This document shows positions 19,512-42,455 of a stretch of 64,000 nt of DNA, one piece after another. The position numbers were made by a program, and so were the translations under genes. The stretch's first letter is position 1; each line of letters begins with the position of its first letter. The stretch comes from Planctomycetota bacterium (GTDB taxonomy: Bacteria > Planctomycetota > Phycisphaerae > Phycisphaerales > Phycisphaeraceae). The stretch spans positions 2,976,001 to 3,040,000 of the forward strand of contig CP066225.1 of NCBI GenBank assembly GCA_016350165.1, written 5' to 3'. A model generated the notes under the pieces. It saw only the letters and a program-made list of their open reading frames with translations. It made no database searches and was not told the origin of the DNA.

Positions 19512-21542
19512 TTATTTGTCATCTTCTTGCTGATCGTTAGCTATGTCATTTTTGAGTTTTGGATCTGTAAGTTGGGGCCAAGGTTCTGGATAGCCTGGTG
19601 AGAGTTCGTTGAGTGGGATGGTGCGGCCGTTGACGGTGATGTGGTCTTGTTTTGAAGATGTGGTTGTGAGTTGTGGTAAGTCGTATGTTGCGATTTTGGT
19701 TGTGGTGCCGTTACGGATGATGAGGTAAGCGCGATGATTGAGTTGATCGAGGAAGATGTCGAAGGGGTGATGATTTTTGACTTCGAGCTTTGCGATGGGT
19801 TTGTTGTCTTCGAGGATGATCAGGTGTGGTGAGGTTTTGGGATCGCTTGGGAAGTGAATGTATTGGAATGTGTAGGTTTGGTTGTCGAGGCCTTGAATGT
19901 AGGCTTGGTTGGTTATGTTTTTAGGGCCGATGTAAAAGCCGATTCGAGTGCCGGGGATGAAGCCGATGTGTGATGCTGGGAGTTTGTTCTCTGGATTGAT
20001 CGCGTTTCTATCAGGAGTAAGCCAATGCTTGGTGAGTGGGTTGTAGGTTGGTCGGTTCTTTCGGCTGAAGTATGTGCCTTCGAAAATATCGGGTTTGTTT
20101 CGTTCTTCTTCTGGGTCGATGTAGAGTGGTAAGAGTCTGTGTGTTTTTAGATCTTCCGCATCGTAGATTGCGATGTTTGCCTGTTCGGGTTCGATCTGCA
20201 TGAGGACAGTGATGCCGACGTCGCTGAGGTCGTAGATATTGGGGCCTGAGTTACTATCCATTGAATCGAAGCCATAGAAGTTATCGACAAATTCATCCAT
20301 CGTGACATGGCCATCATTATTAGTATCGGAGTTGGTCGCTTCCTTAGTGTCCGGAGATTTCGCTTTTACTTTCTTTGCACGTTGCTTGAGTTTAAATGGG
20401 CCTTTATGAGGTTGTGATGCTGCGATGAGGATGCGATGGTTGTCGTCAATGATTTGGTAATCAAGTTCTTGGGTGAGTTGCAATATTTCGCCGATGTCCG
20501 TCCCAATGTGTTGAGGTTTTAAGAAATCATCTTTGTTTTCAGGGATATATGAAGCAGTCGACAAATTACGAGCGTTGCCGAGTCGTGTTGCAAGTCGTTT
20601 GTAATAGTAGTATTCGTGATCGAGATTGGGCCATCCACGGTTGAGATCAGCTAAGTTTTTACCCGTGATGAAACTGGTTTCAGTTTCTTCGTCATAATCA
20701 AAATATGCAAGATCACTGGTTAGTGTTTTTTCGTGTTCAGATGTTAAAGGTAATACGAATTGATCGAACACATAATTATTGGTGTGGTCGGAGATGTCTC
20801 TGTTGTTTTGTACGTGGGTAGAAAGATCGTTGAGATTGAGTTGGATGTTTTTGATGCGCCATTTTGTTGCGCTAATCAGGTTGTGGGTGATCAAGAATCT
20901 TAAAGAGGATGTATCTGAGGGGAATAAGGTTTGTCGATTGATTCTGCCTGTGAGTTGAATGTGCCAATTGAATAGGTTGAGGAATTTGGGGAGCCGAATG
21001 TTGTTGATTAACTCGGTGTTTTTGCTTGAGATGATGGTCATTTTGTTATTGATGATTGCATGGGTGAGTTTGAATTGATGGTAGTAGAGAATCGAAAGGA
21101 TTGGGATTGTAAGTAAACAGAGGAGGATGGTTGTGAGCTTGAATGTTCTGCGTGTGAAGTTACGTGTACGTCTGAATGGTTTGGAGAATGCGGTTGCAAG
21201 ATCGTGGCCACATTCGGTGCATGTACTGGCTTTGTCTTCTGAGATGAGGTAGTCGCAGCGCGGACATGTTTGCATGTGCGGATTGAGTTTGCGTTGTTTG
21301 CGTTTGCTGAGGAAGCGTTTGATGAAGATGAATGAAAGAATGAGTGTGGCGAGGAAAATAAGTTCAGGCCAATGTGAGACGATTGCTTCGTAGAGGTCGA
21401 TGTAAAAGTAGTCGCCGGTGTATGTGTAGATGGTGTCGCCGGTTTGGTCTTGGAAGAGGAATGAGGATTTTGCGGGGAAGTCGATGTGTGTGCCGGTGAG
21501 GGTTTGGATGTCGGAAGGTTGTGTGATGGGGATGTCATTCAT
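19512..21542 (-). CDS. Large membrane protein with zinc ribbon and EF-hand, function unknown
   Basis: I do not recognise a named family. The 676-residue protein has, in order: a soluble N-terminus, a TM segment (about 53-75), a zinc ribbon CPRC..CTEC (about 93-112), and a second TM segment (about 135-155). A large extracytoplasmic domain follows, with a canonical EF-hand loop (DTNNDGHVTMDEF, about residues 409-421). This is the TM-ribbon-TM layout also seen, in a broken copy, at 38340-40045, so the two may be members of a lineage-specific family. The EF-hand suggests calcium binding outside the cytoplasm. The C-terminal 200 residues look beta-rich (FIPGTRIGFYIGP, IATYDLPQL), possibly propeller-like. 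It is monocistronic. Confidence 0.8.
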   Translation of the reverse strand: MNDIPITQPSDIQTLTGTHIDFPAKSSFLFQDQTGDTIYTYTGDYFYIDLYEAIVSHWPELIFLATLILSFIFIKRFLSKRKQRKLNPHMQTCPRCDYLISEDKASTCTECGHDLATAFSKPFRRTRNFTRRTFKLTTILLCLLTIPILSILYYHQFKLTHAIINNKMTIISSKNTELINNIRLPKFLNLFNWHIQLTGRINRQTLFPSDTSSLRFLITHNLISATKWRIKNIQLNLNDLSTHVQNNRDISDHTNNYVFDQFVLPLTSEHEKTLTSDLAYFDYDEETETSFITGKNLADLNRGWPNLDHEYYYYKRLATRLGNARNLSTASYIPENKDDFLKPQHIGTDIGEILQLTQELDYQIIDDNHRILIAASQPHKGPFKLKQRAKKVKAKSPDTKEATNSDTNNDGHVTMDEFVDNFYGFDSMDSNSGPNIYDLSDVGITVLMQIEPEQANIAIYDAEDLKTHRLLPLYIDPEEERNKPDIFEGTYFSRKNRPTYNPLTKHWLTPDRNAINPENKLPASHIGFIPGTRIGFYIGPKNITNQAYIQGLDNQTYTFQYIHFPSDPKTSPHLIILEDNKPIAKLEVKNHHPFDIFLDQLNHRAYLIIRNGTTTKIATYDLPQLTTTSSKQDHITVNGRTIPLNELSPGYPEPWPQLTDPKLKNDIANDQQEDDK

Positions 21543-21603
21543 GGTGCGTGTCCGGAAGGATGAAAGAGAACTGATTGTAACCTTTGAGTTGGTGGAATTG
21601 TAA

Positions 21604-21630
21604 TAAAAAACCCGCTCATTTGAGCGGGTT
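21604..21630 (-). terminator. Rho-independent terminator of the 21659-25084 gene
   Basis: A CCCGCTCA/TGAGCGGG stem is followed on the minus strand by a T6 tract, 30 bases past the stop. Confidence 0.8.
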
Positions 21631-21658
21631 GTTGTGTTTAAGTTGTCGTGTCGAAGGC

Positions 21659-24600
21659 TTATTCGCCAGTTGGTTTGAGGACGACTTCGAGGTAAACGTC
21701 ATTGAGTTGTTTTGTTTGGCCACGCCATGAGCCGTCTTTTTCGATGCGGATGTCCATGCCTTCGGTTTCAGTTTGATCGAAGTCGATGGTGTCGAGTTCG
21801 GGGACGCCGAAGTTTTTGAGATCAGTGAGGTTGAGGATTGAGAGGCCGAGGAAGTCAGAAGGAACTTCTATGAGAATGAGGTCACCCTCAAAGTGAGCTG
21901 TGCCTGCTTCGACGATGAGTTCAACTGTGCCAACGGTGATCTCGCGAAGGATCGGCAAATCGGAGAGTTGAGGTGCCTGCTTACGAGGTTGCTGTTGCTT
22001 GTATGTACCGGGGTAAGGTTGACGGGGGCCGCCTGCACCCATTCCAGCGGTGTCCATTTCCATCATGCCCATTTCCATCTGCATTTCCATGGACATTGGG
22101 TCGATTTGTGGAGCTGTGTTGCGGTTGTTTCGCATGTTACGGTTATTACGTGCGTTGTTTGACTGTGCTGTACCGTCATCGCCACGAACGAGCAGGAAGA
22201 GTGTGTAAGTGCCTGCTGCTTTTTTTAGTGCACGTGTATGGATTTCACGTTTGGTGTTTGACCAGAAAGTTTCCAGTGCACTGATTGAACGGTCAGGGCG
22301 AGATGCGATGGACTGAGCCATTTTCTGCTGCATCTTTTCATTGCCGCCTGCGGAAGCGACCAGTGCTGCGATGGCGCCGGTAGCCAAAGACTGATCACTG
22401 CTGCCAGCGAGTGCAAGTAACGCGTTATCATTTGGATAAATGTCAGCAAACTTTGAAGGTGAAGGTAGATCGTTGTGAGCGATTTCCTGGCCGAACCAGA
22501 TCGCTAATGCTGCTTGCTGATCTGGGTCACGTAAGAGGCCTGCGACGAGTGGTGCTTTGTTATCGAGTGCTGTGTAGATTCGTTTTGCGAATGCTTCACG
22601 GTCGTCGATGGAAAGCTCTTGCAGGATGATATCTAATGAACGATTAGACTTACGTAGTTTGATACCAGATTCGAGTGCTGCGGCGTCGTCGCCTTCGATG
22701 ATCAGACGAACTAGAGCACGTGATGCATAATCTTCGTGTTGTTGTTTAGCGAAGAAGTATGCGAGGCCGTCTGGAGTATCGGCTTGGCGTACAGCTGATT
22801 CAACAATACGGTCATAAACACTTGCAACGGGCATGTCACCTTGGTTGTTGAAGTTGTTTTGACGATAGCGGCTGTCCGATTTGATAACAGGTGTGCCGAT
22901 GTTGAAGTGCTTGAGTGCATTCCATGCGAGTTTGCGAGTTTCTTTGTCGCCAGAATTGAGTGCTCTGAAGATATTGTGTGAGGTTGTGAGGATTGGGATT
23001 TGTGTGGTGAGAGCTGCTTCAGCTTCTGCGATGTCGGATTCGAGCTTTTCTGTGACATCGTTTGAAGTATTGTTTTTGTTGCCAAGGAAAGCAGTGAGGA
23101 TTTTAGAAGCAGCTTTGTCGATCATTTCAGATTTAGGTGCTTCGATGCTGTTAACGAGTTTGAGTGTGCGTTTGGGAATTGACTGATCTGGTGAGCCGAG
23201 TAGTTGGTGGTTCATCCAGCCAGCAGCGAGTCGTGATTTGCCTGCTGAAGTTGCAATGGTGAGGATCGCATTATCAAGGCGTTCACCTTTGAGTGTGTCG
23301 AAGCTCAAGCCATGAGTAAGCAGCTTCGTCAGATCAGTTGTAGTGGTTGTGTTATTGCGATTGCGGCTACTGCTGCGGTTTTGCTGCTCATCTGAAACTG
23401 CAGAGAGAATTTTATCAATGACGAGATTGATATCTGGGCCTGCAGGATTTGAGATGATGTGATTGATGGCTTTGAGCATTTGGTTCGCAGCCATGGGGTC
23501 TTGTGTATCAATCGCAAGCAAGGGCTTGAGGATGAGTAACTGTTCATCAGTACCCATGGCGCCTGATGCACCTTTGAGTAATTCGAGTGTCGTTGTTGTT
23601 GGAGGGATTGCTTCAGAAAGACCTTTGACGATCGGGATGCGAACCAGTGGATCGTTTGAAGAAATCAATTGATTTGCAAGACGATAGATTGGATCATTAT
23701 CTTGCACGGTTGGCAATGAGCCTGAGTTATAGAGTGCGTTTGCAACGAGCTTCGTGATGAATGGGTTATCATTGGAAGCCATCTTTTGCAGGTCGGTTGC
23801 AACTTGGTATGCCTGCGGATTCAGTTGGCCACGTGTTGAAGAGTTGTTGATTGATGAGGTGGACTGAAGGATCTCAAGATCATCAAACGTTAGTGTCCAT
23901 TCCGGTTCAGTGTTTGAAGTGATCTTGCTTACAGCTAGAGGCAAGTCATAAACAGCCCAGATTTGTGCTGGCTTTTTCAAAGTGAATGTATCAGGCAATT
24001 CGCGAACTTGTTTTTGAAGTTCTTTGTATTGCTCTTGTGCTGCACGATATTTCAGTTGTTCTTCACGCTGCTTTTGGCGATCGGTGTTACGTGAACTTGC
24101 TGATGAACGAGAACGTGTGGAAGAAGAACGCGATGACGTGCGTGAACGTGATTGTGTCGGCATACCCATACCGCCCATCTCATCTATGCCGCCATTTGAG
24201 CGTGAGGAAGTGGACCGTGAACGTGTTGCTGACGTACGTGAACGTGATGAACTGGATGGACGTCTGGTTTCGCCTGGACGAAGTGGACGTCTTTCGTTCA
24301 TCATTCGTGAATCAATGCGTAGTGAGTAAAGTGAGTTGGTATTTGAAACTTCAGCACCCGAAATATTTCTCTCAAGTTCCCAGGTCACTGAACCATCCGC
24401 ATTGAGCTTGATCGTACGAGCAATACGTGGCGCATCATGTGGGATCTCTGGCTTAAGTGCTTCAAGTTCCTCATAGGTCATTTGCTTTTGCTGAACCTGA
24501 GGACGTTGTTGCTGACGAGGTGCACCACCCATCGGCCCCATCATTTCTATGTCCACCGTGTCCATACCCATGCCCATTGGGTCCATCATGCCCATATCAG

Positions 24601-30427: not shown

Positions 30428-31017
30428 GCCCAGTTCCAGATCAATGACGGTGCGATGAATGTTGAGATTGGATCGAATGGCGGGTTGGATTTTTGTTGTG
30501 GATTTTCTGATGTCTGGCTGAAAATTTGGGAACATTGGGATAATTGTTTGGTCTAATAATAAATGGGCCTTAGAGGGCGATAATCCGCGAATTTTGGTCA
30601 GTTATGGGGCGTTGGGCTACATATATATAGTATTAGGTCGATAATAAGTGGAGAGGAATGTCCTGCGAGGTATTTCTGGGAGGCTGAGCGGGACATGGGA
30701 TTGGAAAATGAGATGCGATTTACAAAGTAGTCGCTCACGTTTATCCAGACGATCGTCAAGATCTTGGTGGGGCGGGGTGAACCGCTCTTGACGGTCCGAC
30801 GAATAAAAGGGATAAAGGGAGCATGAATGTGAAAATGGGGGATTTTGCAGCGAAATCAAATCTGCTGCGAAACTTACATGCAATGAGACTTGGGAATCAA
30901 GTGAGATAAATCGGGATCTCAGAGCGGGAGAGGTTGAGGGGTGAGAAAATGGGGAGACTTAGGGGCAGGATCAGGAGTTTGCTAGCAATTAAACGCACAC
31001 GATGCGGAGATGGTCAG
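30428..31017. other. Gene-poor 590-base spacer
   Basis: No convincing gene is present. Short open frames on both strands lack ribosome-binding sites. An upstream in-frame extension of the next gene (from 30934) is present but disfavoured. Confidence 0.45.
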
Positions 31018-32382
31018 ATGAATCGACTCAGAAAACTTGGTGGATACGGCTTGTTCTTTTTGATGGCAGTTGCTGTCATGGGTTTCACTTGGGCGGCAGA
31101 CGGTCCGTTTGTGGCTGAGGTCACGAAGGACAACGTGGATGTGATGAGTGGAGCGGGTAAGCGTGTCTACTACAAGATGGGTCAGCTGAAGAAGGGTGAT
31201 CAGGTTGTGGTGAGAGGTCGTTTGTTCGGCTGGTACCGCATTGAATGCCCGACTGGTGTTTACAGCTACGTGTCGAAGGCGTTTGTTGATTTGAAGGGTG
31301 ATCGCACGATTGGTGTGGTCAACAAGGACGGCACTGAGGTGAAGGCTGGCATGATGGGTGGTAAGGAAGGCGATCATAGTCGCGTGCAGCTTTTGCTGAA
31401 CGAAGGTGACACGGTGAAGATCGTGGGTGAAGCTGGTAACAGTTTGTACAAGATCATTCCGCCAAAGGAAGCGACTGCGTTTGTTGAGCCGGGCTCACTG
31501 ACCACGGTAACAACTGCACAACAACTGCAACGCGAAAAAGATCGTCTGGCAGCAGAGGCAGCTAAGGCGGCAGCGACGGAAGTGGGTGCTGCGGAAAAAG
31601 CAGCGGCTGCTGAAGTAGAAGCGGCGCAAGCGGCAGCAGCGGCGGGTGCGAAGAAACCAGTTGATGCTGCAACTGAAAAACCAGGCACAACACAGAAACC
31701 AACTATCGCGGAATTGGCGAGAGCAGCAGCGGCAGGTAAAAAGCCAGCCGATGCAGCGAAGACGCCGGGTCTAACTTTGAGTGATAAGACGAAGGTCGCG
31801 GCGAAGCCGGGTGAGGTGAAGTACCTGCAGGGCGACAAGGGTGAGGTTCTGGATGAGAGTAATGTCTCGAAGGAATTGAAGGCGCTTGATGCGAAGATGC
31901 AGGAGTTGATGAAGAAGAATCTGGAAGAGCAGCCGTTGGATGTGATGATTGCTGCTTATGAGAAGATGCTTGCTCGTAAAGACGTGAGCGATATTGATAA
32001 AGAAGTTGTGAAGATTCGCGTTGAATCGCTCAAACACAACAAGAAGCTGCTGATGTTGTTGGCTGCGTTGGAAGAGGCAGAGAAGCCTGTGAAGGTTGAA
32101 GTGCCTAAGGAAGAAGTGGTCGTGATTGAGTACGATGCGGTTGGTCAGTTGTTGGCGAGTGCGGTGTATGATGGCACGACACTTCCACGCATGTACCGAT
32201 TGGTTGATCCTGCGAGTAATCGTACATTGGTTTATGTGAAGCCGGGCCAGTTGGTTGATGGTCGTGCGACGCTTGGGAGATTGGTTGGGATTGTTGGTTC
32301 ACAGCAGTTTGATCAGTCTTTGAAGCTGAACGTGATTAAGGTTGAGAAGATTGATGTGTTAGAGAAGTCTTCGAAGAAATAA
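31018..32382 (+). CDS. Secreted SH3-like domain protein with Ala-rich linker, function unknown
   Basis: The 454-residue protein starts at ATG 31018, with GGAGA about 8 bases upstream, and has a signal peptide (hydrophobic core to TWAA). The N-terminal 140 residues hold two SH3b-like units: VTKDNVDVMSGAGKRVYYKMGQLKKGDQVVV...GWYRIECP, and a second around VVNKDGTEVKAGMMGG...LNEGDTVKIVGEAGN. A helical Ala/Lys/Glu-rich linker (about 165-260) follows. The C-terminal part is a charged helical segment (KELKALDAKMQELMKKN) plus a beta domain (VGQLLASAVYDGTTLPRMYRLVDP). SH3b proteins often bind peptidoglycan or cell-surface ligands. It carries its own terminator. A structural role at the cell envelope is the most I would infer. 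Confidence 0.8.
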   Translation: MNRLRKLGGYGLFFLMAVAVMGFTWAADGPFVAEVTKDNVDVMSGAGKRVYYKMGQLKKGDQVVVRGRLFGWYRIECPTGVYSYVSKAFVDLKGDRTIGVVNKDGTEVKAGMMGGKEGDHSRVQLLLNEGDTVKIVGEAGNSLYKIIPPKEATAFVEPGSLTTVTTAQQLQREKDRLAAEAAKAAATEVGAAEKAAAAEVEAAQAAAAAGAKKPVDAATEKPGTTQKPTIAELARAAAAGKKPADAAKTPGLTLSDKTKVAAKPGEVKYLQGDKGEVLDESNVSKELKALDAKMQELMKKNLEEQPLDVMIAAYEKMLARKDVSDIDKEVVKIRVESLKHNKKLLMLLAALEEAEKPVKVEVPKEEVVVIEYDAVGQLLASAVYDGTTLPRMYRLVDPASNRTLVYVKPGQLVDGRATLGRLVGIVGSQQFDQSLKLNVIKVEKIDVLEKSSKK

Positions 32383-33179: not shown

Positions 33180-35234
33180 ATGAAGATGAAGACTGATGAA
33201 GCGGTTAAAGAAATTGAGCTATGTGAATGTTTGACGTTGTTTGAGAAAGAGGAGGGGTTTCGGGTTGAGATGGTGGAGAGGACGCCGATGGGGCGGCGGA
33301 TGTTTTATTTGTTTTGTGGGATTTGTTTGACGTTGTTGCCGGGGGTATTGAAGTGGGGTGGGGTTTTTGAAGGGGAAGTGTGGGCGCATTTGAATCGGCT
33401 ACTAGGTTCAATGATGTTGGTGACGGGGGTTGCATGCGTGTTTGGTGTATATATTTTGTGGCGTATGATTGTTAGAAGTGGTGTAGTGGAGTTTGATGGT
33501 GAATTGCTGACGGTTGTGAAGTCGTATAACAGTCAAACGAAAAAGTGTGTTGGGTATGGGGTTAAGGTGAATGAGGTTTTGGGGTTGCGGATGTATGAGG
33601 AACGTCGGGGTTCTATTGCGCGATGGTTATTTGGGCTTGGCAGGAAATGGACGAATCGTAAACGGATGGAGATTGTGGTGGATGGAGGCACGTTCCAGTT
33701 GTTCAGGAATTGGAAGGAAGAGGAACTGCGGGTATTGATTGATTTGTTAGTTACGCGGTTGGATTTGTTGGAGATGGGTGAGCGAGAGCGGGAAGAGGAG
33801 GTTGATGGTGGTGTTGTGAGAATGAAGACTTCGCTGCCTAAGGAATGGCGGATTGAACGATGGATTATGTGGGGATGTTTGTTGCTGTTTGTATTTTTGG
33901 CTGGTTTTGTGTTTTTGAATTGGGGAGATAAAAAATCGATTGTGGAAGTGGCGTTATTGATGGCGTTACTGCCTTTGGTTGTGCTGAAGTTATGGTCGGA
34001 TAAAGGAACGAAGGCGGGGAGGGAGTTGGCTGATCAGTATCGGTATTGTGAAATGTCGGATATTGAGATGATGGATCAGAAAGATGAGTTACGTGAGTGT
34101 GATATTGAGGAGGAAGATTTACCCCCTATGCCAGGGTATGGGAATCTGAAATTTCTGAAGACGACTTCTGGGTTTATTTTGAAGATACAGCATCGGTTTG
34201 TGGGGCGATATAAGAAGTGGTTGATAGCAATTGGCAGTGTTAGTGTTCTTGTCGGTTTAGGATGTCTTGGTTCGCTGCATGATGGTTTTGAATCAACGCT
34301 TAGAGATGACGCGGAGAGTTGGATTTTTGTAGGTGTTGCAATTGGTGTTGGCATTGTTTGTTTGTTTAGTGCGATTAGCTGCTTTTTCTTGTTAGTTCAT
34401 TCAGAGCGATTGGTTTGGAATGAGAAGGAGCATACGTTTGGCACGGGGAGTGTGGCGGGGAATATGTTTAAGGTAGATAAGATTTATGGGGTGCGTTTAT
34501 TGATTCTTGCGCATCGTGATTATGAGATTGGGGTGGGAAATGAGAAGAAGCGAAAACGAAATGCGAAGGTTGAGGTGGTGACGCGTGAAGCGGTTAATAC
34601 TGTGACGACGGAATGGGAAGAGGATGATTGCAGATGGATGTTGGAGGTATTGAAGCAAAAGACTGATGTTGCGGTTTTGCCTGATCGGTATCGTGGTGAT
34701 GAGCAAACTGATGATCGGGTGAAGATGAATTGGCGTAGTACGATGCGACGAAGGGATTGGAGGAAGTTGCGTAATGCTGTATTGATATTGGTTATTATTA
34801 TGTCTGGATTTTTGGGGTGGGGTATTCATGATACGGTTGACCGATTGGATTGGGTTAAGGTGACTGGGGAGGTGCTTAGTATTGAGATTGTCGAAGATCA
34901 TTCGGTTGTGAAGTATTGGTATGAGGTGGACGGGAAGGTGTATCGAGCTGGTGATGCAGGGCAATATGCGCTGCAAAATTATCCAATCGGTAAGCGCGTT
35001 GAAATTTATTATGATCCGGATGATGTTGGGCGTGCGAGCATGAGTAAATCGAGTGTGCTTGGTATTTATTTCCTATGTGGTGTGCTTGTGTTGATGTGGT
35101 TTGGTTGGTTTTTGATGGTGATCAAGCTAAAGCCAAATGAGAAGCAGTTTGCACTTGCAGAGAAGTTGTATAAAGAAAATGGTGGACGAAGAGGTTGGAA
35201 TCGTGTGCGAAGTGAGCGGGGTGAAGCGGAGTAG
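33180..35234 (+). CDS. Multi-pass membrane protein with C-terminal DUF3592 domain
   Basis: The 684-residue protein has about six to eight TM segments. Two similar blocks are visible: residues about 36-195 and about 330-500 each have paired TM helices, then a beta segment (VVEFDGELLTVV / LVWNEKEHTFGTG), then a VxxVxGLRM / VDKIYGVRLL step. Each ends in an E/W-rich helix (WKEEELRVLIDLL / WEEDDCRWMLEVL), which suggests internal duplication. The C-terminus (about 565-665) is a DUF3592 domain between two TM segments: WVKVTGEVLSIEIVEDHSVVKYW..., YPIGKRVEIYYDPDDVGRAS. DUF3592 proteins are poorly characterised. The first ATG (33180) or the one 6 bases later may be used. Codon use is TTG/GTG-rich. Confidence 0.8.
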   Translation: MKMKTDEAVKEIELCECLTLFEKEEGFRVEMVERTPMGRRMFYLFCGICLTLLPGVLKWGGVFEGEVWAHLNRLLGSMMLVTGVACVFGVYILWRMIVRSGVVEFDGELLTVVKSYNSQTKKCVGYGVKVNEVLGLRMYEERRGSIARWLFGLGRKWTNRKRMEIVVDGGTFQLFRNWKEEELRVLIDLLVTRLDLLEMGEREREEEVDGGVVRMKTSLPKEWRIERWIMWGCLLLFVFLAGFVFLNWGDKKSIVEVALLMALLPLVVLKLWSDKGTKAGRELADQYRYCEMSDIEMMDQKDELRECDIEEEDLPPMPGYGNLKFLKTTSGFILKIQHRFVGRYKKWLIAIGSVSVLVGLGCLGSLHDGFESTLRDDAESWIFVGVAIGVGIVCLFSAISCFFLLVHSERLVWNEKEHTFGTGSVAGNMFKVDKIYGVRLLILAHRDYEIGVGNEKKRKRNAKVEVVTREAVNTVTTEWEEDDCRWMLEVLKQKTDVAVLPDRYRGDEQTDDRVKMNWRSTMRRRDWRKLRNAVLILVIIMSGFLGWGIHDTVDRLDWVKVTGEVLSIEIVEDHSVVKYWYEVDGKVYRAGDAGQYALQNYPIGKRVEIYYDPDDVGRASMSKSSVLGIYFLCGVLVLMWFGWFLMVIKLKPNEKQFALAEKLYKENGGRRGWNRVRSERGEAE

Positions 35235-35405: not shown

Positions 35406-35506
35406 GAGTGTGGTTTGAATGCAGACAGTGTTGTGGGAAGGGGGTATGATGAATCTGGTGCGACTGTTGTCGTGGTGAAGTTTTTGTCAATGAAGAATTG
35501 GTTTTA

Positions 35507-36289
35507 ATGATGGCTAATCAACGGATAGATGATGGTTTGGTTGAAGTGATAAAGGGGTGTGAGAGATTGGTTGTGCTTACGGGGGCTGGGGTTAGTGCGG
35601 GGAGTGGAGTGCCTACGTTTAGGGATGCACTTGAGGGGTTGTGGGCGAAATATGATCCGATGGAATTGGCGACGCCTGAGGCTTTTGGGCGGGATGCAAA
35701 GTTGGTGAGTGAGTGGTATGACATGAGAAGGTTGAAGGTGCTGGGGTGTGAGCCGAATGAGGGGCATGGGGCGATTGTGGGGATGGAGAAATTGATGAAG
35801 GAAAGAGGTGGGATGTTTAAGTTGCTGACGCAGAATGTTGATCGGTTGCATCAAAGGGCGGGCAGTGAGGATGTGGTTGAGTTGCATGGAAGTTTGTTGG
35901 TGTGGCGAGATGTTGAGAATGGTGAGGAGGTTTTGTGTGATGGAAAGGAGAAGTTGCCGAGCTATCCGTGGGTTAGAGATGGTGATGAGAGGGATGGGAG
36001 ATTGATGAGGCCTGGCGTTGTTTGGTTTGGTGAGATGTTGCCTGAGTGGGCGGTGATGGAAGCGAATGAAGCGGTGAGTGAGTTGGGTGAGAAAGATGTA
36101 TTTATGAGTGTTGGAACGAGCGGGGTTGTGTATCCGGCGGCGGGTTATGTGGATGAGGCGAGGTGTAAGGGTGCGGTGACGGTGGAGGTGAATTTGGAGA
36201 GGACGCCAATTAGTGATTTTGTTGATAGGTGTTTGCTTGGGAAGAGCGAAGAGATTTTGGTTGAGTTGTTGGAGAGGGTGAAGGGATGA
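35507..36289 (+). CDS. Sirtuin-family NAD-dependent deacylase without zinc-binding cysteines
   Basis: This Sir2-type enzyme removes acyl groups from lysine using NAD. The Rossmann and catalytic motifs are intact: LTGAGVSAGSGVPTFRD, TQNVDRLHQRAGS (NAD contacts), LHGSL (catalytic His) and PGVVWFGEMLP. WYDMRR matches the Tyr-x-x-Arg pair that marks class III sirtuins (desuccinylase/demalonylase, as in E. coli CobB). The small zinc module between HGSL and the VVWFGE motif keeps only one Cys (in EVLCDG) instead of four. Start: tandem ATGs at 35507 and 35510, neither with a good Shine-Dalgarno sequence; an upstream TTG at 35498 is less likely. At about 260 residues the length is normal. Confidence 0.88.
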   Translation: MMANQRIDDGLVEVIKGCERLVVLTGAGVSAGSGVPTFRDALEGLWAKYDPMELATPEAFGRDAKLVSEWYDMRRLKVLGCEPNEGHGAIVGMEKLMKERGGMFKLLTQNVDRLHQRAGSEDVVELHGSLLVWRDVENGEEVLCDGKEKLPSYPWVRDGDERDGRLMRPGVVWFGEMLPEWAVMEANEAVSELGEKDVFMSVGTSGVVYPAAGYVDEARCKGAVTVEVNLERTPISDFVDRCLLGKSEEILVELLERVKG

Positions 36290-36518: not shown

Positions 36519-38162
36519 TTAATTGTTGATGATGTATTGGAGTTCTTCTTTGTATTGTTTGACAGTTGGGTGGTTGGAGCCGAAGAGTTTTTGTGCGATT
36601 TTGATGACTTGTTTCATGTCTTTAACAGCGTCTGTTTTGTTGGCTTGTCTTGCGTGGACGACGGAGCGGTAGTAGAGGGCGCTTAAGGTGATGGCTTGTG
36701 CTTCTTGGGTGCGAGGCATTTTTGATTTGATGATCTGGTCGAGAATTGGTTTGGATTTTGAGATTTGGCCGTCGAGGACGAGGATGCCGCCGATGTCGTA
36801 GAGGCATTGGTTGTAGGTTGTGGAGTTGATGCCATGTGTTTTTTCGTAGATGTTCGCGGCTTGTTTTAAGTATTCGACTGCATTTTTGGGTTCACCTTGT
36901 TGGTGATAGAGTGTGCCGAATTTTTTGAGTGTTGTTGCGACGTATTGATGTTCATCGCCGAGTGTTGCTTTGTAGATGCTGAGTGAACGTTCGAGGAGTT
37001 CGAGTGCTTTGTCGTATTTTTTTTGTGTGGTGTAGATTTCTGCGATGCTTGAGATGTTTGCAGCGACGTTGATGTGGTCTTTGCCATGGATTTTTTCGTC
37101 GATGGCGAGTGAGCGTTTTTGGAATTTGATTGCGAGGTCGAGTTTATCGAGTTCACGATAGGTTGCAGCGAGGTTGAAGAGTGAGGATGAAAGATTGGGG
37201 TGATCTTTTTCGTAGATATTTTCGAGGATTGCGAGGGCTTGCTTGTTGTGTTTTAGAGCGAGGTCGAATTTATCGGTACAGCGGTAGAGAAGGCCGAGGT
37301 TGTTAAGGATGTCGGCGTAGTCTTCGTGGTCTACGCCGAAGTGTTTTTTGGCGATACGTTCTACTTGCTTAAGGAGTGATTCAGCTTTTCTGTAGTTTGC
37401 GTGAACGATGTAGTGTCTGGCGAAGTCGTTGAGGATGTAGATTGTTTCGTTGCTGTGGACGCCATTGGTGCGTTTGGAGATGGCGAGAGCTTTGGTGTAG
37501 TGGCGGATGGCTTTGGGTGAATCGCCTTTCCGGTTGTAGAGTAATGCGAGGTTCAGATGTGATTGGCAAATATCTTCGTGGTTTTGATCGAGAACTTTTT
37601 GGCGGATTTCGAGTGCCTGGAGGTGGAGTGGTTCAGCTTTGTCGAATTGGTCATTGTCGTAGTAGAAATCGGCGAAATCGGCAATGGCTTGGGCGGTGAT
37701 TTCGTGTTCGCGTGGAAGGTGTTCTTTGCAGATTTGGTTTGCTACTTTGTAGTTGAGTTCTGAATCTTCGTAGTTGCCGAGGTCTTGAAGGCATGCGGCG
37801 AGGCCGAGGTGTGCGAGGATGAGATTTTCGTTGTCGGCTGAGTCTGAATTTTGATATGTGGTGAGGATGTCGGAGTAGATTGGTTTTGCGAGTTCGCTTT
37901 GGTCTGCTTCGTAGTAGATTTGCCCGAGGAGGAATTTTGCATCGATGGTGTTGATATCGGTGAGCCCATGCTTTTGGGTTGCGAGTTCGACGGCTTGCTT
38001 GGCGAGCTTGATCGCTTGGTCGTAGTTTTCTTTGTCGGCGTGCTCAAGAGCTTGGTCGGACAGGTCTTTGAATGATGTTTTGGCGATGATGCTGTGGGTG
38101 GGGGCGGTGAGTGAGAGAAGAGCGATAAGGATCGCGATGGAAAGGGTTATCGATCGATGCAT
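36519..38162 (-). CDS. Exported tetratricopeptide-repeat protein (kinesin-light-chain-like TPR)
   Basis: The 547-residue protein has a signal peptide (1-27) and about ten consecutive TPR units of the longer, 42-residue TPR_12 type: for example SLFNLAATYRELDKLDLAIKF, DILNNLGLLYRCTDKFDLALK. Each helix pair ends in a typical YEKDHPN / HGKDHIN / LGDEHQY-type loop. Such proteins are protein-interaction scaffolds, here on the periplasmic side. No catalytic domain is present. The last 100 residues drift from the repeat and cap the array. A partner cannot be named from context. A 64-residue membrane protein may be encoded downstream in the same unit. Confidence 0.88.
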   Translation of the reverse strand: MHRSITLSIAILIALLSLTAPTHSIIAKTSFKDLSDQALEHADKENYDQAIKLAKQAVELATQKHGLTDINTIDAKFLLGQIYYEADQSELAKPIYSDILTTYQNSDSADNENLILAHLGLAACLQDLGNYEDSELNYKVANQICKEHLPREHEITAQAIADFADFYYDNDQFDKAEPLHLQALEIRQKVLDQNHEDICQSHLNLALLYNRKGDSPKAIRHYTKALAISKRTNGVHSNETIYILNDFARHYIVHANYRKAESLLKQVERIAKKHFGVDHEDYADILNNLGLLYRCTDKFDLALKHNKQALAILENIYEKDHPNLSSSLFNLAATYRELDKLDLAIKFQKRSLAIDEKIHGKDHINVAANISSIAEIYTTQKKYDKALELLERSLSIYKATLGDEHQYVATTLKKFGTLYHQQGEPKNAVEYLKQAANIYEKTHGINSTTYNQCLYDIGGILVLDGQISKSKPILDQIIKSKMPRTQEAQAITLSALYYRSVVHARQANKTDAVKDMKQVIKIAQKLFGSNHPTVKQYKEELQYIINN

Positions 38163-38339
38163 GATGTTGCTCCTCGGATGGAGATGGTTTGTTTTGCAGA
38201 TTGGAGGTTAGCAAAAATGATGCGGATAGGCGAGGGGGAAATGGTGTTGTGGTATGAAGGGTAAAAGAAAGTGATTGAGGTTGAAGAAGTGGACGAGTAA
38301 GTTGGGGATTGTTTGGGTATTAACCGGGAGTGTCATGAG

Positions 38340-40045
38340 ATGGCGAATGATGTGAAGACGAAGGCGATTGAGGCGAGTGAAGTTTTTTTGCCGAGCGGGG
38401 AAGGGGTGAGTGGGGTGCGGTGGGATAAGGTGATGATGGTGAATGATGTTGAGGGTGGGATGAAGGGGGTTTGGATTGGGAATCGTGAGGCGGTGGATGT
38501 GTGGGGGGTGATTGTTTTTTACTGGCCTGAATGGTTTTCGGTTGTGGCGGTGTTGTTGTGTGCTGTGATGCTTGTTTGGTGGTGGCGAAGAAGGAAGTTG
38601 CGAGAGGTGAAGGCGGGGGAGGCGTATTGCAGGAAGTGTGGGTATTGGAGGGTGTTGTGTGTCCTGAGTGTGGTGCGGGGAATGTGATGGAAGGGCGGCG
38701 GAATTATCGTGTGAGGAAATGGGGCGGGCCTGGGACGAAGTTGGAGCGAGTGTGGCAAGGTGCTGCGGTGATGGCGCTGCTGTGCGGTGTGATGGTGGTG
38801 GGGTTAGTTGGCGCGGAATGGTTGGCGTTGCGGAGTAAAGGGTATCAGAGTTCTGAGTATGGGGATTGGAGCTGGGTGAGAGCGCATTACTGGGAAAAGA
38901 TTGGTATGAATGGTTGGATGGTTTGGGAATCGCGGTGGCTATTTGATCAGTTTGCGGATCAGATTACTGACTGGCGAAATGGTGATGGCAGAAGTGAATG
39001 GGGGAAGTATTGGTCGAGGTCGTTTGCGTTTACGTTTGTGTCAGCGAGGCAAGAGGTGGTGTGTGAGATTGATTTTGAAAGTGGTGAGCAGACGACGCGG
39101 ATTTATAGTGACAAGGCGGGGCGTAGTGCGGCGAAGTATGGGACTGGGGATTTGGGGTGGATGTCGGCGTTGGGTGATGAGGAGGTGACGGGGGTTGTTT
39201 ACGATGTTGGATTTTTGGGTGAAGCGGCAGCCCGTCATAAAGAGTTTTATGAACAGCTAAAGGATGAGGGCGGGCAGGCTGACTCGTTGTGGGGGAGTGA
39301 GATGTTGGTGGGGGATGTGTTGATGGCGATGGTGATGAAGCGGTGCTTGTATGTGGGTTGGTTGGGGGATGATGGGGGAGATGGGAGTGGGGGGATGAGG
39401 CATGTTGAGTTGCATGGTGGTGATGATCCTTTGATAACAGGGTTTGAAAGAATTGCGAAGAAAGAGGAATGTGTGGCGGTGGATGGGCGGGTTTATATGT
39501 TTGGTCAGATGATGAGTACGCCTGTGATGGGGAATGAGTTGGAGATTTATGTTGCGGGTTGTTTGGATTCGAAAGAAAAGCGGCTGCTGGTGCGCATTGA
39601 AGAGGCAGGAGATTTTAATGGGGATGTGATTGGGTTCGATGGGTATGAAGGATTGGCGGGTTTTGATTTGAAGAAAAGGCGATGGGTGGGGAGTGATGGA
39701 CACTTGCTTGTGAATGATCGTGAGCGGTTGCGTCTTGGCAGGGAGGAAAGGATTAAATCTAAGGGGAGTGTGCTGGAAGGATTGTTGCGAAGTGAAGCGC
39801 ATGAGTATCAGATGCGCGTCAACATGAATTCGTTTTCTATGATGAGTGGAGGGAAGGCGAAGTTTTTGATGAATTATGAATTGGTTCGGTTGGGGGATGA
39901 AGAGAAACGCTGGACAATGAAGAGTGGTGGAGGTGTTTTTGAGCGGTTTTATATTGATGAGAAGGGGGAGCGATTGTTTGCGGCGAATGATACAGATGTG
40001 TTTATGTTTGAGCTTGAAGGGTTGGGGGAGGTTGCTCAGGAGTAG
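38340..40045 (+). pseudogene. Frameshifted zinc-ribbon membrane protein gene (paralogue in layout of the 19512-21542 product)
   Basis: Two overlapping frames make one gene. Frame 1 (ATG 38340, with GGGAG upstream, to the stop at 38687) has a soluble start, a TM segment (WPEWFSVVAVLLCAVMLVWW) and the first half of a zinc ribbon, YCRKCGY. Frame 2 (open to 40045) has the second half, VVCPECG (Cys codons at 38660 and 38669), then a TM segment and about 400 residues of extracytoplasmic domain. The ribbon is joined if one base is added near 38645, giving CRKCGY then LEGVVCPECG. Layout TM-ribbon-TM-large domain matches the 19512-21542 protein. It is either a genuine disrupted gene, a sequence error, or, less likely, a programmed frameshift. 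Codon use downstream of the shift still looks like coding sequence, so any inactivation is recent. Confidence 0.7.
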
Positions 40046-40386
40046 GGGAAGGTAAGAAAAATTGGGGATTGTGTTGGTTCGTTGAGGTGATTATCGGGGG
40101 GGATTACGGACTTGAGGGGTCCGGTTAAAAAAGTTGTGTTGGAAAGGCAGGGGAGGAGGATTTTGTCGGCGATGCGGAGGGGGAGGGGGGTGTTAGAAAT
40201 ATATGAAAGAAAAAGAAAGGTGGGTGGTTGATGCTGCGCGCAGGGGTGTCGATGTGATATGGGCAAGGGGAAATAAGTGGGATATGGGGAAAGGGATTTG
40301 GATTGATGTTCGTGTTGTACGGCTGATGGAAATAGTCGTGCGATACGGGAAAAATGGGAAAAGTTTGAGGCGGTAAGGAGAAAGTT
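40046..40386. other. 340-base G-rich spacer
   Basis: No gene is supported. AAGGAGAAAG just before 40387 is the ribosome-binding site of the next gene. Confidence 0.5.
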
Positions 40387-40887
40387 ATGTCGACTAGGCC
40401 AATTCGTATCGGTGAGATTTTGGTAGAGCAGGGCGTGCTGAGTGAACAGCAGGTGTTTGAAATTGTTCAAGAGCAGAAGCGCGTGAAGCGGCCGTTCGGG
40501 GTGCTGGCAGAACAGATGTTTGATGTTACGCTTGAGTCGATTGAGAATGCTTGGGTAGAGCAGTATCACCGAACGACGGGTACGTTGGATTTGAATGACG
40601 TTGAGATTGATGAAGAAGCTTTGAGGATGTTGAATCGTCGTCAGGCTTGGCAGTTTGAGATGATGCCGATCCGTCAGGAAGAGACGGGTGAAGTGTTGAT
40701 TGCTGCATCAAGAAGAAGGTTAGCAAGAGCGGTGACGTTTGCGACGCTGAAGTTTGATCGTGTGACGTTCTTCAGAGTGGCAGAGAGTGAACAGTTGAGA
40801 TCATTTTTGCGGAAGCATTATCCGATGCCTGAAGTTTCTGACGAATTGTTAGAAAAGGTTAAAGCGATGACGTCCGATCACGGATAA
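40387..40887 (+). CDS. Stand-alone MshEN/GspE N-terminal domain protein
   Basis: The 166-residue protein has AAGGAG about 8 bases upstream. It matches the N-terminal domain of type II secretion and type IV pilus ATPases (GspE/PilB/MshE): RIGEILVEQGVLSEQQVFEIVQEQ, FGVLAEQMFDVTLESIENAW, YHRTTGTLDLNDVEIDEEALRMLNR and QEETGEVLIAASR. No Walker motifs follow, so the ATPase part is absent. In MshE this domain binds cyclic di-GMP through two 24-residue motifs beginning RxGxxL. The first motif is recognisable here, the second only partly. It could be a c-di-GMP receptor or adaptor acting on pili or secretion. It is monocistronic. Confidence 0.78.
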   Translation: MSTRPIRIGEILVEQGVLSEQQVFEIVQEQKRVKRPFGVLAEQMFDVTLESIENAWVEQYHRTTGTLDLNDVEIDEEALRMLNRRQAWQFEMMPIRQEETGEVLIAASRRRLARAVTFATLKFDRVTFFRVAESEQLRSFLRKHYPMPEVSDELLEKVKAMTSDHG

Positions 40888-41644
40888 AGAATGTACAGTC
40901 GTTTAAAGCGATTAAGAAATGACTTCCTTGCTGAAGTGTTTTGATCGATCGCTGTATTGATGCATAATCGTTGATTAGACGAGTGACTGCTTGAAAACAA
41001 GTTTGTTGCTGATGCAGGGTTTTATTCGGGAAGCATCATAGACATGCAATGTGTCTTCGTTAGCTAAGAGGCTGACATAGGGGAGGGCACGACGACTGAG
41101 TTAGGGAACAATTGAATAAGCATTATTGCTGACTGTTTTCGTGTGCTTGAATGAATGACGATTACGTTGTTTATATTTGCAGGCGGCGGTGAGTGAGCCT
41201 GTGTTGGCATCGCATTGATTTGGAGATCAATGTGTAGGCGATCAGCTATGCGGTTGCCCGGCATGGCGGATGAAGAAAGATTGGGCGGGGATATGGTGCG
41301 TGGGGATGTGAAGGGGGAGGAGGGATATGGGGAGGATATCTCAATGGGTGAAGGGATGCAGGGGAGGATGATTGGGGGAGGATGATCAGGAGTGGGATTT
41401 TGGGAGTGGGATATTGGCGGGCGGATGAGTGCGTATTTGTCATTGGCTATGCTGGATGGTTTGATGACGGTAAGCAAAGGGGCGTTGGGGAGAAGGGCCT
41501 TGTGAAAAATGCTGGTTTTGCAAGGTATTTAAGAAGCCGTCTTGGAAGAGACGGTTTCTTAAGGGCGAAAAAGTGGAAGTGATGGAAAAGTAATCGTGGG
41601 GTATGCGGTGTTTAAAAGAGAATGGTTAACAGAAATTTGATATG
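40888..41644. other. Gene-poor 760-base spacer with an orphan hairpin
   Basis: Open frames here lack start-site support. A degenerate feo-type palindrome (two mismatches) lies at 40964-40978, and a long hairpin lies at 41529-41562. The centre (41260-41400) is very G-rich. Confidence 0.45.
41529..41562. repeat. Orphan 14-bp hairpin
   Basis: Arms 41529-41542 and 41549-41562 pair throughout, with one G-U pair and a 6-base loop. No T-tract of terminator type follows and no gene ends nearby, so it may belong to an untranslated RNA or a binding site. Confidence 0.4.
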
Positions 41645-41670
41645 AAAAAAGCCCGCTGTTGAGCGGGCTT
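41645..41670 (-). terminator. Rho-independent terminator of the BI-1/YccA gene
   Basis: A 9-bp stem (AAGCCCGCT with AGCGGGCTT) with a 4-base loop runs into a T6 tract on the minus strand, 24 bases past the stop. Confidence 0.82.
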
Positions 41671-41693
41671 GTTGTTTTTGATGTGTGTTTGGT

Positions 41694-42455
41694 TTAGCGG
41701 TTGCGCAATTTTGAGAGTAGGCGGAGGATTTCGATGTAGAGCCAAACGATGGTGACGAGGAGTGCGAATGCTCCGTACCATTCCATGTATTTCGGTGAGT
41801 TTGTTTTTGAGCCAACGTCGATCATGTGGAAGTCGAGTACGAGGTTGAGAGAAGCGACGATGACGACGACGACTGAGAAGCCGATGGAGAGCAAGCTACC
41901 GTTGGATGAATCGAGGACAGCGATTTCGAGGCCGAAGATCCAACCAGCGACGATTGCGAAGAGGTAGAAGAGCATGATGCCAGCGGTTGCGGAGACAACG
42001 CCGATGATGAAGCCCTTGGTGACAGGGATGACACCTGTTGCGTAGAGAGCGAGCATCACGAAGAGGACGCCGAGTGTTGAGCCGACGGCTTGAACGACGA
42101 TGCCTGGGTATTGAATTTCGAACATAGCGGAGAGTGCACCGAGGAAGAGGCCTTCAAAGACGGCGTAGATTGGTGCGGTGATTGGTGAGGCTTGTTTGAA
42201 GAACATTGTAATGAGGAAGAGGATGAAGCCGCCGATGACGCCACCCCAGAGGTAAGGCATGATGGCGCCAATGTTACCTGCAGCAACAGCGTTGTATGTC
42301 ATCTTCCATGTGATTGCAGCTGCGGTTGTGAGGATGAGTAGAAGGATGCCAGTTTTGATGGCAGTGCCTTGGACGGTCATGGTGTTTGAAGATTCGTACA
42401 TATCCGCTGGCGAACGGAATGTTTCCTCTTTGAGAAGTGGGTTTGAATTAAACAT
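41694..42455 (-). CDS. Bax inhibitor-1/YccA-family membrane protein
   Basis: The 253-residue inner-membrane protein has seven hydrophobic helices after a short polar N-terminus (MFNSNPLLKEETF). GGGAG lies 8 bases upstream. Family features: YAVFEGLFLGALSAMFE, GIMLFYLFAIVAGWIFG, and near the C-terminus LNLVLDFHMIDVGSKTNSPKYMEWYGAFALLVTIVWLYIEILRLL, whose acidic residues form the pH- or Ca-sensing pair in studied BI-1 proteins. Bacterial members modulate proteases such as FtsH or leak calcium; the role here is not known. It is a single gene between terminators. Confidence 0.9.
   Translation of the reverse strand: MFNSNPLLKEETFRSPADMYESSNTMTVQGTAIKTGILLLILTTAAAITWKMTYNAVAAGNIGAIMPYLWGGVIGGFILFLITMFFKQASPITAPIYAVFEGLFLGALSAMFEIQYPGIVVQAVGSTLGVLFVMLALYATGVIPVTKGFIIGVVSATAGIMLFYLFAIVAGWIFGLEIAVLDSSNGSLLSIGFSVVVVIVASLNLVLDFHMIDVGSKTNSPKYMEWYGAFALLVTIVWLYIEILRLLSKLRNR

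Follow-up and report, generated by a model that had tools for sequence, protein, structure and literature searches.

Our analysis indicates, with a probability that we put at about three in four, that positions 38340-40045 of the window (the whole 64,000-nucleotide stretch of DNA analysed here) hold an accessory paralog, broken recently, from an expanded family of membrane proteins with two helices and a zinc ribbon. An ordinary young pseudogene is the most likely identity of the region, as opposed to a new mode of gene reading. The source is a marine planctomycete with a one-contig genome of 5,234,020 bases. In the proposed course of events, a small deletion, probably of 10-19 bases and of a length equal to 1 modulo 3, would have removed part of the ribbon loop that separates the two CxxC pairs, and translation from the normal start would now give a stub of 115 residues, containing a single helix and one half of the ribbon, before meeting a stop. 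The lesion is presumably carried by the living strain, and its product is probably non-functional. Intact relatives may cover for the broken accessory copy. The remainder of the gene still has the character of coding sequence, which suggests that the loss is recent.

Bacterial pseudogenes arise by small frameshifting deletions in multicopy families, and the present case resembles them in placing one broken copy beside intact paralogs and in leaving the rest of the frame undecayed, but differs from them in that there is no intact orthologue against which the lesion could be dated or sized.

Reading frames across the zinc ribbon

All features of the locus lie on the plus strand. The N-terminal fragment, frame A (38340-38687), encodes 115 amino acids from an ATG at 38340, in a frame open from a TTG at 38313, and ends at a TGA at 38685-38687. 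It comprises the first predicted transmembrane helix (hydropathy peak at residues 57-75), the segment GEAYCRKCGY and 13 off-frame residues followed by the stop, the protein ending in ...GEAYCRKCGYWRVLCVLSVVRGM. Frame B, the remainder of the gene (38651-40045, within an ORF listed at 38531-40045), contributes 464 codons and a stop, and contains the second half of the ribbon, a hydropathy peak predicted to be the second transmembrane helix, the WSWV...WMVWESRW segment common to the family and then a long divergent C-terminal part (...LEGVVCPECGAGN...). The first CxxC, as known from the ribbons of relatives, is found at 38628-38639 in frame A and the second at 38660-38671 in frame B, in agreement with the first-pass annotation, which had described two overlapping frames that share the CxxC halves between them. 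The frame breaks in the loop between the two pairs (38640-38659), a G/T-rich stretch of 20 bases (2 mod 3) in which the longest homopolymer is 3; the loops read in relatives span 30-78 bases.

Eight plus-strand paralogs served as the training set for codon log-odds in blocks of 90 bases. Frame A had positive values in the first four blocks, beginning at 38340 (12.4, 11.1, 7.3, and 2.8), and frame B scored above zero in all blocks starting at 38610 or later (3.5 to 16.2). In the block at 39600 the two frames scored equally (4.8 each), but frame A has two stops there. The codon signal thus switches frame at the ribbon loop, which, together with the consecutive profile matches described below, confirms the frameshift inside the zinc ribbon of a membrane protein gene that had been suspected from the first reading. 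Stops occupied 310 of 4592 codons (6.8%) and 459 of 4592 codons (10.0%) in the two off-frames of the eight paralogs, so that an open run of 464 codons in frame B is not explained by chance, the probability of such a stop-free run being about 1e-14 at 6.8% by our own arithmetic. The earlier statement that the downstream part is coding therefore holds. By codon statistics frame B is undecayed over its 464 codons, and the single break is the only decay seen.

Family membership and length of the ribbon loop

With frame A as the query, 13 other places were found in the same genome (best match E 3.1e-14), each of them an open frame of 561-728 codons uninterrupted by stops, and in all 13 translated members the ribbon is flanked by hydropathy peaks. 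A ten-row N-terminal profile (A1) added one further member of 548 codons, known from its search row alone, which brings the other members in this genome to 14, none with an internal stop and with frames of 548-728 codons. A profile built from 17 relatives, namely the 13 from this genome and four of the five found in the same-genus genome G001, matched frame A over columns 7-100 (83.2 bits, E 2.4e-27) and frame B over columns 111-219 (33.7 bits, E 2.3e-12), the E-values being those of a search of two sequences. The first match ends at CGY and the second begins at VCPECG, and columns 101-110, which correspond to the ribbon loop, are matched by neither piece. The N-terminal part with the first helix and the first CxxC thus fits the family, and the second CxxC and second helix are present but in the downstream frame, while a single open frame with a loop of at least 10 residues is absent; the frame break and the 20-base loop therefore identify a broken, not an intact, family member. 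The locus shares with the family the first helix, the GEaYCxkCGY and CPECG motifs, the second helix and the WxWV...WfxWeSrW segment, and it departs from it in the frame broken within the ribbon loop and in a later C-terminal part that does not align to the profile.

After residue 110, frame B scored -0.7 against the family profile. When each of the 17 relatives was left out in turn, 14 scored 21.5-56.0 over the same part, and the other three (L018, L019, and L020), likewise intact, scored 7.0, 5.0, and -2.3. Judged by these scores, the C-terminal part of the broken copy is unusual for the family and damage there is beyond the reach of alignment, and since this part does not align, the support for it is entirely codon-statistical. 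A structure predicted from the single sequence of 38687-40042 was unusable (mean pLDDT 37.5).

The length of the ribbon loop was read twice. Of 34 loci in the first reading, 31 had a ribbon (13 from the same genome and 18 others; L028, L031, and L034 gave none), with loops of 10-23 residues. The second covered 30 loci of the 84 profile matches described below, and all 30, seven of them already included in the first reading, held a ribbon with a loop of 11-26 residues, an additional match in another frame of L056 being left uncounted. Taken together, the loop measured 10-26 residues from the second to the third cysteine, or at least 30 bases, in all 54 distinct relatives, 40 of which lie in frames of at least 480 codons; the pattern admitted loops of at least three residues, the loci came from ribbon-holding queries, and ribbons were read within open frames only. 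The loop in the window is shorter than in every relative read. The proposal that one added base near 38645 would restore a normal ribbon is contradicted by these lengths, since that base gives a loop of seven residues, outside the range of the relatives, and the loop of the window therefore probably lacks 10 bases or more. Restoring 10, 13, 16, or 19 bases would give loops of 10-13 residues, with the original loop being estimated from paralogs and more distant relatives, none of them an orthologue.

Regarding the wider family, the ten-row profile gave 84 matches at E 1e-6 in 42 of the 121 genomes of the order, the source genome included. Many of these are in shorter proteins that may have the ribbon alone in common with the family, and three of the 84 hold one stop inside the match, none of the three being in the source genome or G001. 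Neither A nor B nor any of the relatives submitted (four to Pfam and three to NCBIfam) scored above the cut-off of a model in these two databases, and the papers listed by a keyword search of the literature included nothing specific to the family. For this two-helix family of Phycisphaerae, defined here by its CxxCGY...CPECG ribbon, the A1 alignment and the 17-member profile, no curated model was found. This one genome has about 15 divergent two-helix ribbon proteins, six of them in tandem, and those of them that were compared with Pfam and NCBIfam gave no model at cut-off; this family merits the attention of curators more than the frameshift does.

Other members of the family were also observed beyond the broken copy. 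Six tandem paralogs of 561-600 codons each lie outside the window in the same genome (C1:3189200-3198217), and they are alike in the N-terminal part and diverge strongly later. Within the window, the minus strand carries a distant member with 728 open codons at 19515-21701. Inspection by eye of the ribbon codons of L008-L020 indicated that plus-strand paralogs have G/T-rich codons there and minus-strand paralogs A/C-rich ones.

Alternative explanations for the frame break

Of the three options raised in the first-pass annotation, recent mutation is the best supported, while an error in the sequence is weakened and recoding lacks support. If the deposited sequence had lost bases in the G/T-rich loop, the gene of the living strain would be intact and in a single frame, as the undecayed 464 codons of frame B would lead one to expect; the absence of decay beyond the single break, which fits such an error too, counts to that extent against a broken paralog. 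According to the report on Poriferisphaera strain ZRK32, the presumed source, both Illumina NovaSeq and Nanopore PromethION sequencing were used (PMC10945688); the Nanopore reads among these published data favor an error, and the Illumina data speak against it. A longest homopolymer of 3 in the loop and a probable shortfall of at least 10 bases, beyond the usual one-base indel, are also difficult to reconcile with an error, and the 14 other members in the genome are free of internal stops. Codon screens of the window for other frame switches provided a weak control only: the first returned zero pairs but missed the 38340-40045 case as well, and in the second, which listed five pairs on the same strand with one of the two segments always shorter than 180 bases, ORF A was displaced by an overlapping segment of the minus strand. 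Considering the probable size of the lesion, the use of two sequencing technologies and the uninterrupted frames of the paralogs, we regard a sequencing or assembly error as unlikely, at a little under one chance in five.

The two fragments might instead be expressed as a split gene. The stop of frame A overlaps an ATG of frame B in the TGATG at 38685-38689, a possible restart site in the right frame, and termination-reinitiation there could yield the second fragment as a protein of its own, with one helix and the divergent C-terminal part, as the open and codon-typical course of frame B to its end would allow. Such overlaps are, however, frequent by chance here, since 109 of the 310 off-frame stops in the eight paralogs overlap a coding-frame ATG, and for 44% of 538 interior ATGs the Shine-Dalgarno energy is at least as favorable. 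Restart would also leave the ribbon cut in half, and no relative with such a split came to notice among those read. This explanation is consequently improbable, and we give still less credence to the notion that selection keeps the break, maintaining two separate membrane proteins, of which one would be the N-terminal stub with its half-ribbon and the other a C-terminal piece with a divergent domain, made by coupled restart at TGATG, in which case a ribbon would require the pairing of two chains.

Programmed -1 frameshifting that joins frames A and B has the slightest chance of all these explanations. Known -1 sites re-read one base, which is the direction observed here; both frames are coding, and, as in dnaX, the step from the upstream to the downstream frame is -1. 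Unlike dnaX, the locus contains no strict X XXY YYZ slippery heptamer between 38529 and the stop of frame A, and its paralogs are in one frame. The arrangement is not conserved in the 14 other members of the genome, all 14 of which use one frame, and the ribbons of the 54 relatives, sought within open frames only, are no test of its conservation. The joined product, moreover, would have the abnormal seven-residue loop, compared with 10-26 residues in the 54 relatives. Recoding was rejected on these grounds. Returning to the preferred reading of a recently broken paralog, the two ORFs are best recorded in annotation as one disrupted gene, neither as two genes nor as a case of recoding.

Genomic neighborhood and search for an orthologue

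The surroundings of the broken gene are partly kept in G001, a same-genus genome of 4,291,168 bases. On one side, G001 carries relatives of the genes at 30934-32382 (65% identical) and 35498-36289 (68%), the latter with a product that we take to be Sir2-like, and on the other side relatives of 40387-40887 (93%) and 41694-42455 (70%). Between the relatives of 35498-36289 and 40387-40887, G001 has a different ORF of 367 codons, and neither A nor B nor the TPR gene described below had a match at E 1e-3 in the corresponding 12.5-kb stretch. Frame B had no match at the same threshold in 60 other genomes, so that among the 61 genomes including its own it matched itself alone. This absence and the different ORF in G001 together argue that the gene is an accessory copy. 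The failure to find an intact orthologue in the 60 other genomes and in genome_contigs also counts against a broken paralog. In genome_contigs, a gapped exact pattern for an intact allele or orthologue gave 0 matches and frame B gave 13 pattern matches, none of them confirmed, a result that is silent on strain variation because genome_contigs may omit records of the same or very near genomes. A fifth DNA match, L005 (E 9.6e-5), was discarded, as it shows only two ORFs of 100-101 codons, which do not resemble the family. Rfam gave no match at gathering scores over 38000-41700.

Other elements of the neighborhood were recorded in the course of this comparison. A 684-codon, partly hydrophobic ORF at 33180-35234 is also unmatched in the corresponding 12.5-kb stretch of G001, which indicates that this neighborhood gains and loses genes. 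Adjoining the broken gene on the minus strand, 36519-38162 encodes a TPR-repeat protein that resembles the NCBIfam model FxSxx_TPR, although its 172 bits fall short of the cut-off of 300. Finally, the segment 40091-40290, upstream of the gene at 40387-40887, is approximately 79% identical to G001 over 207 columns (L050:9824-10023).
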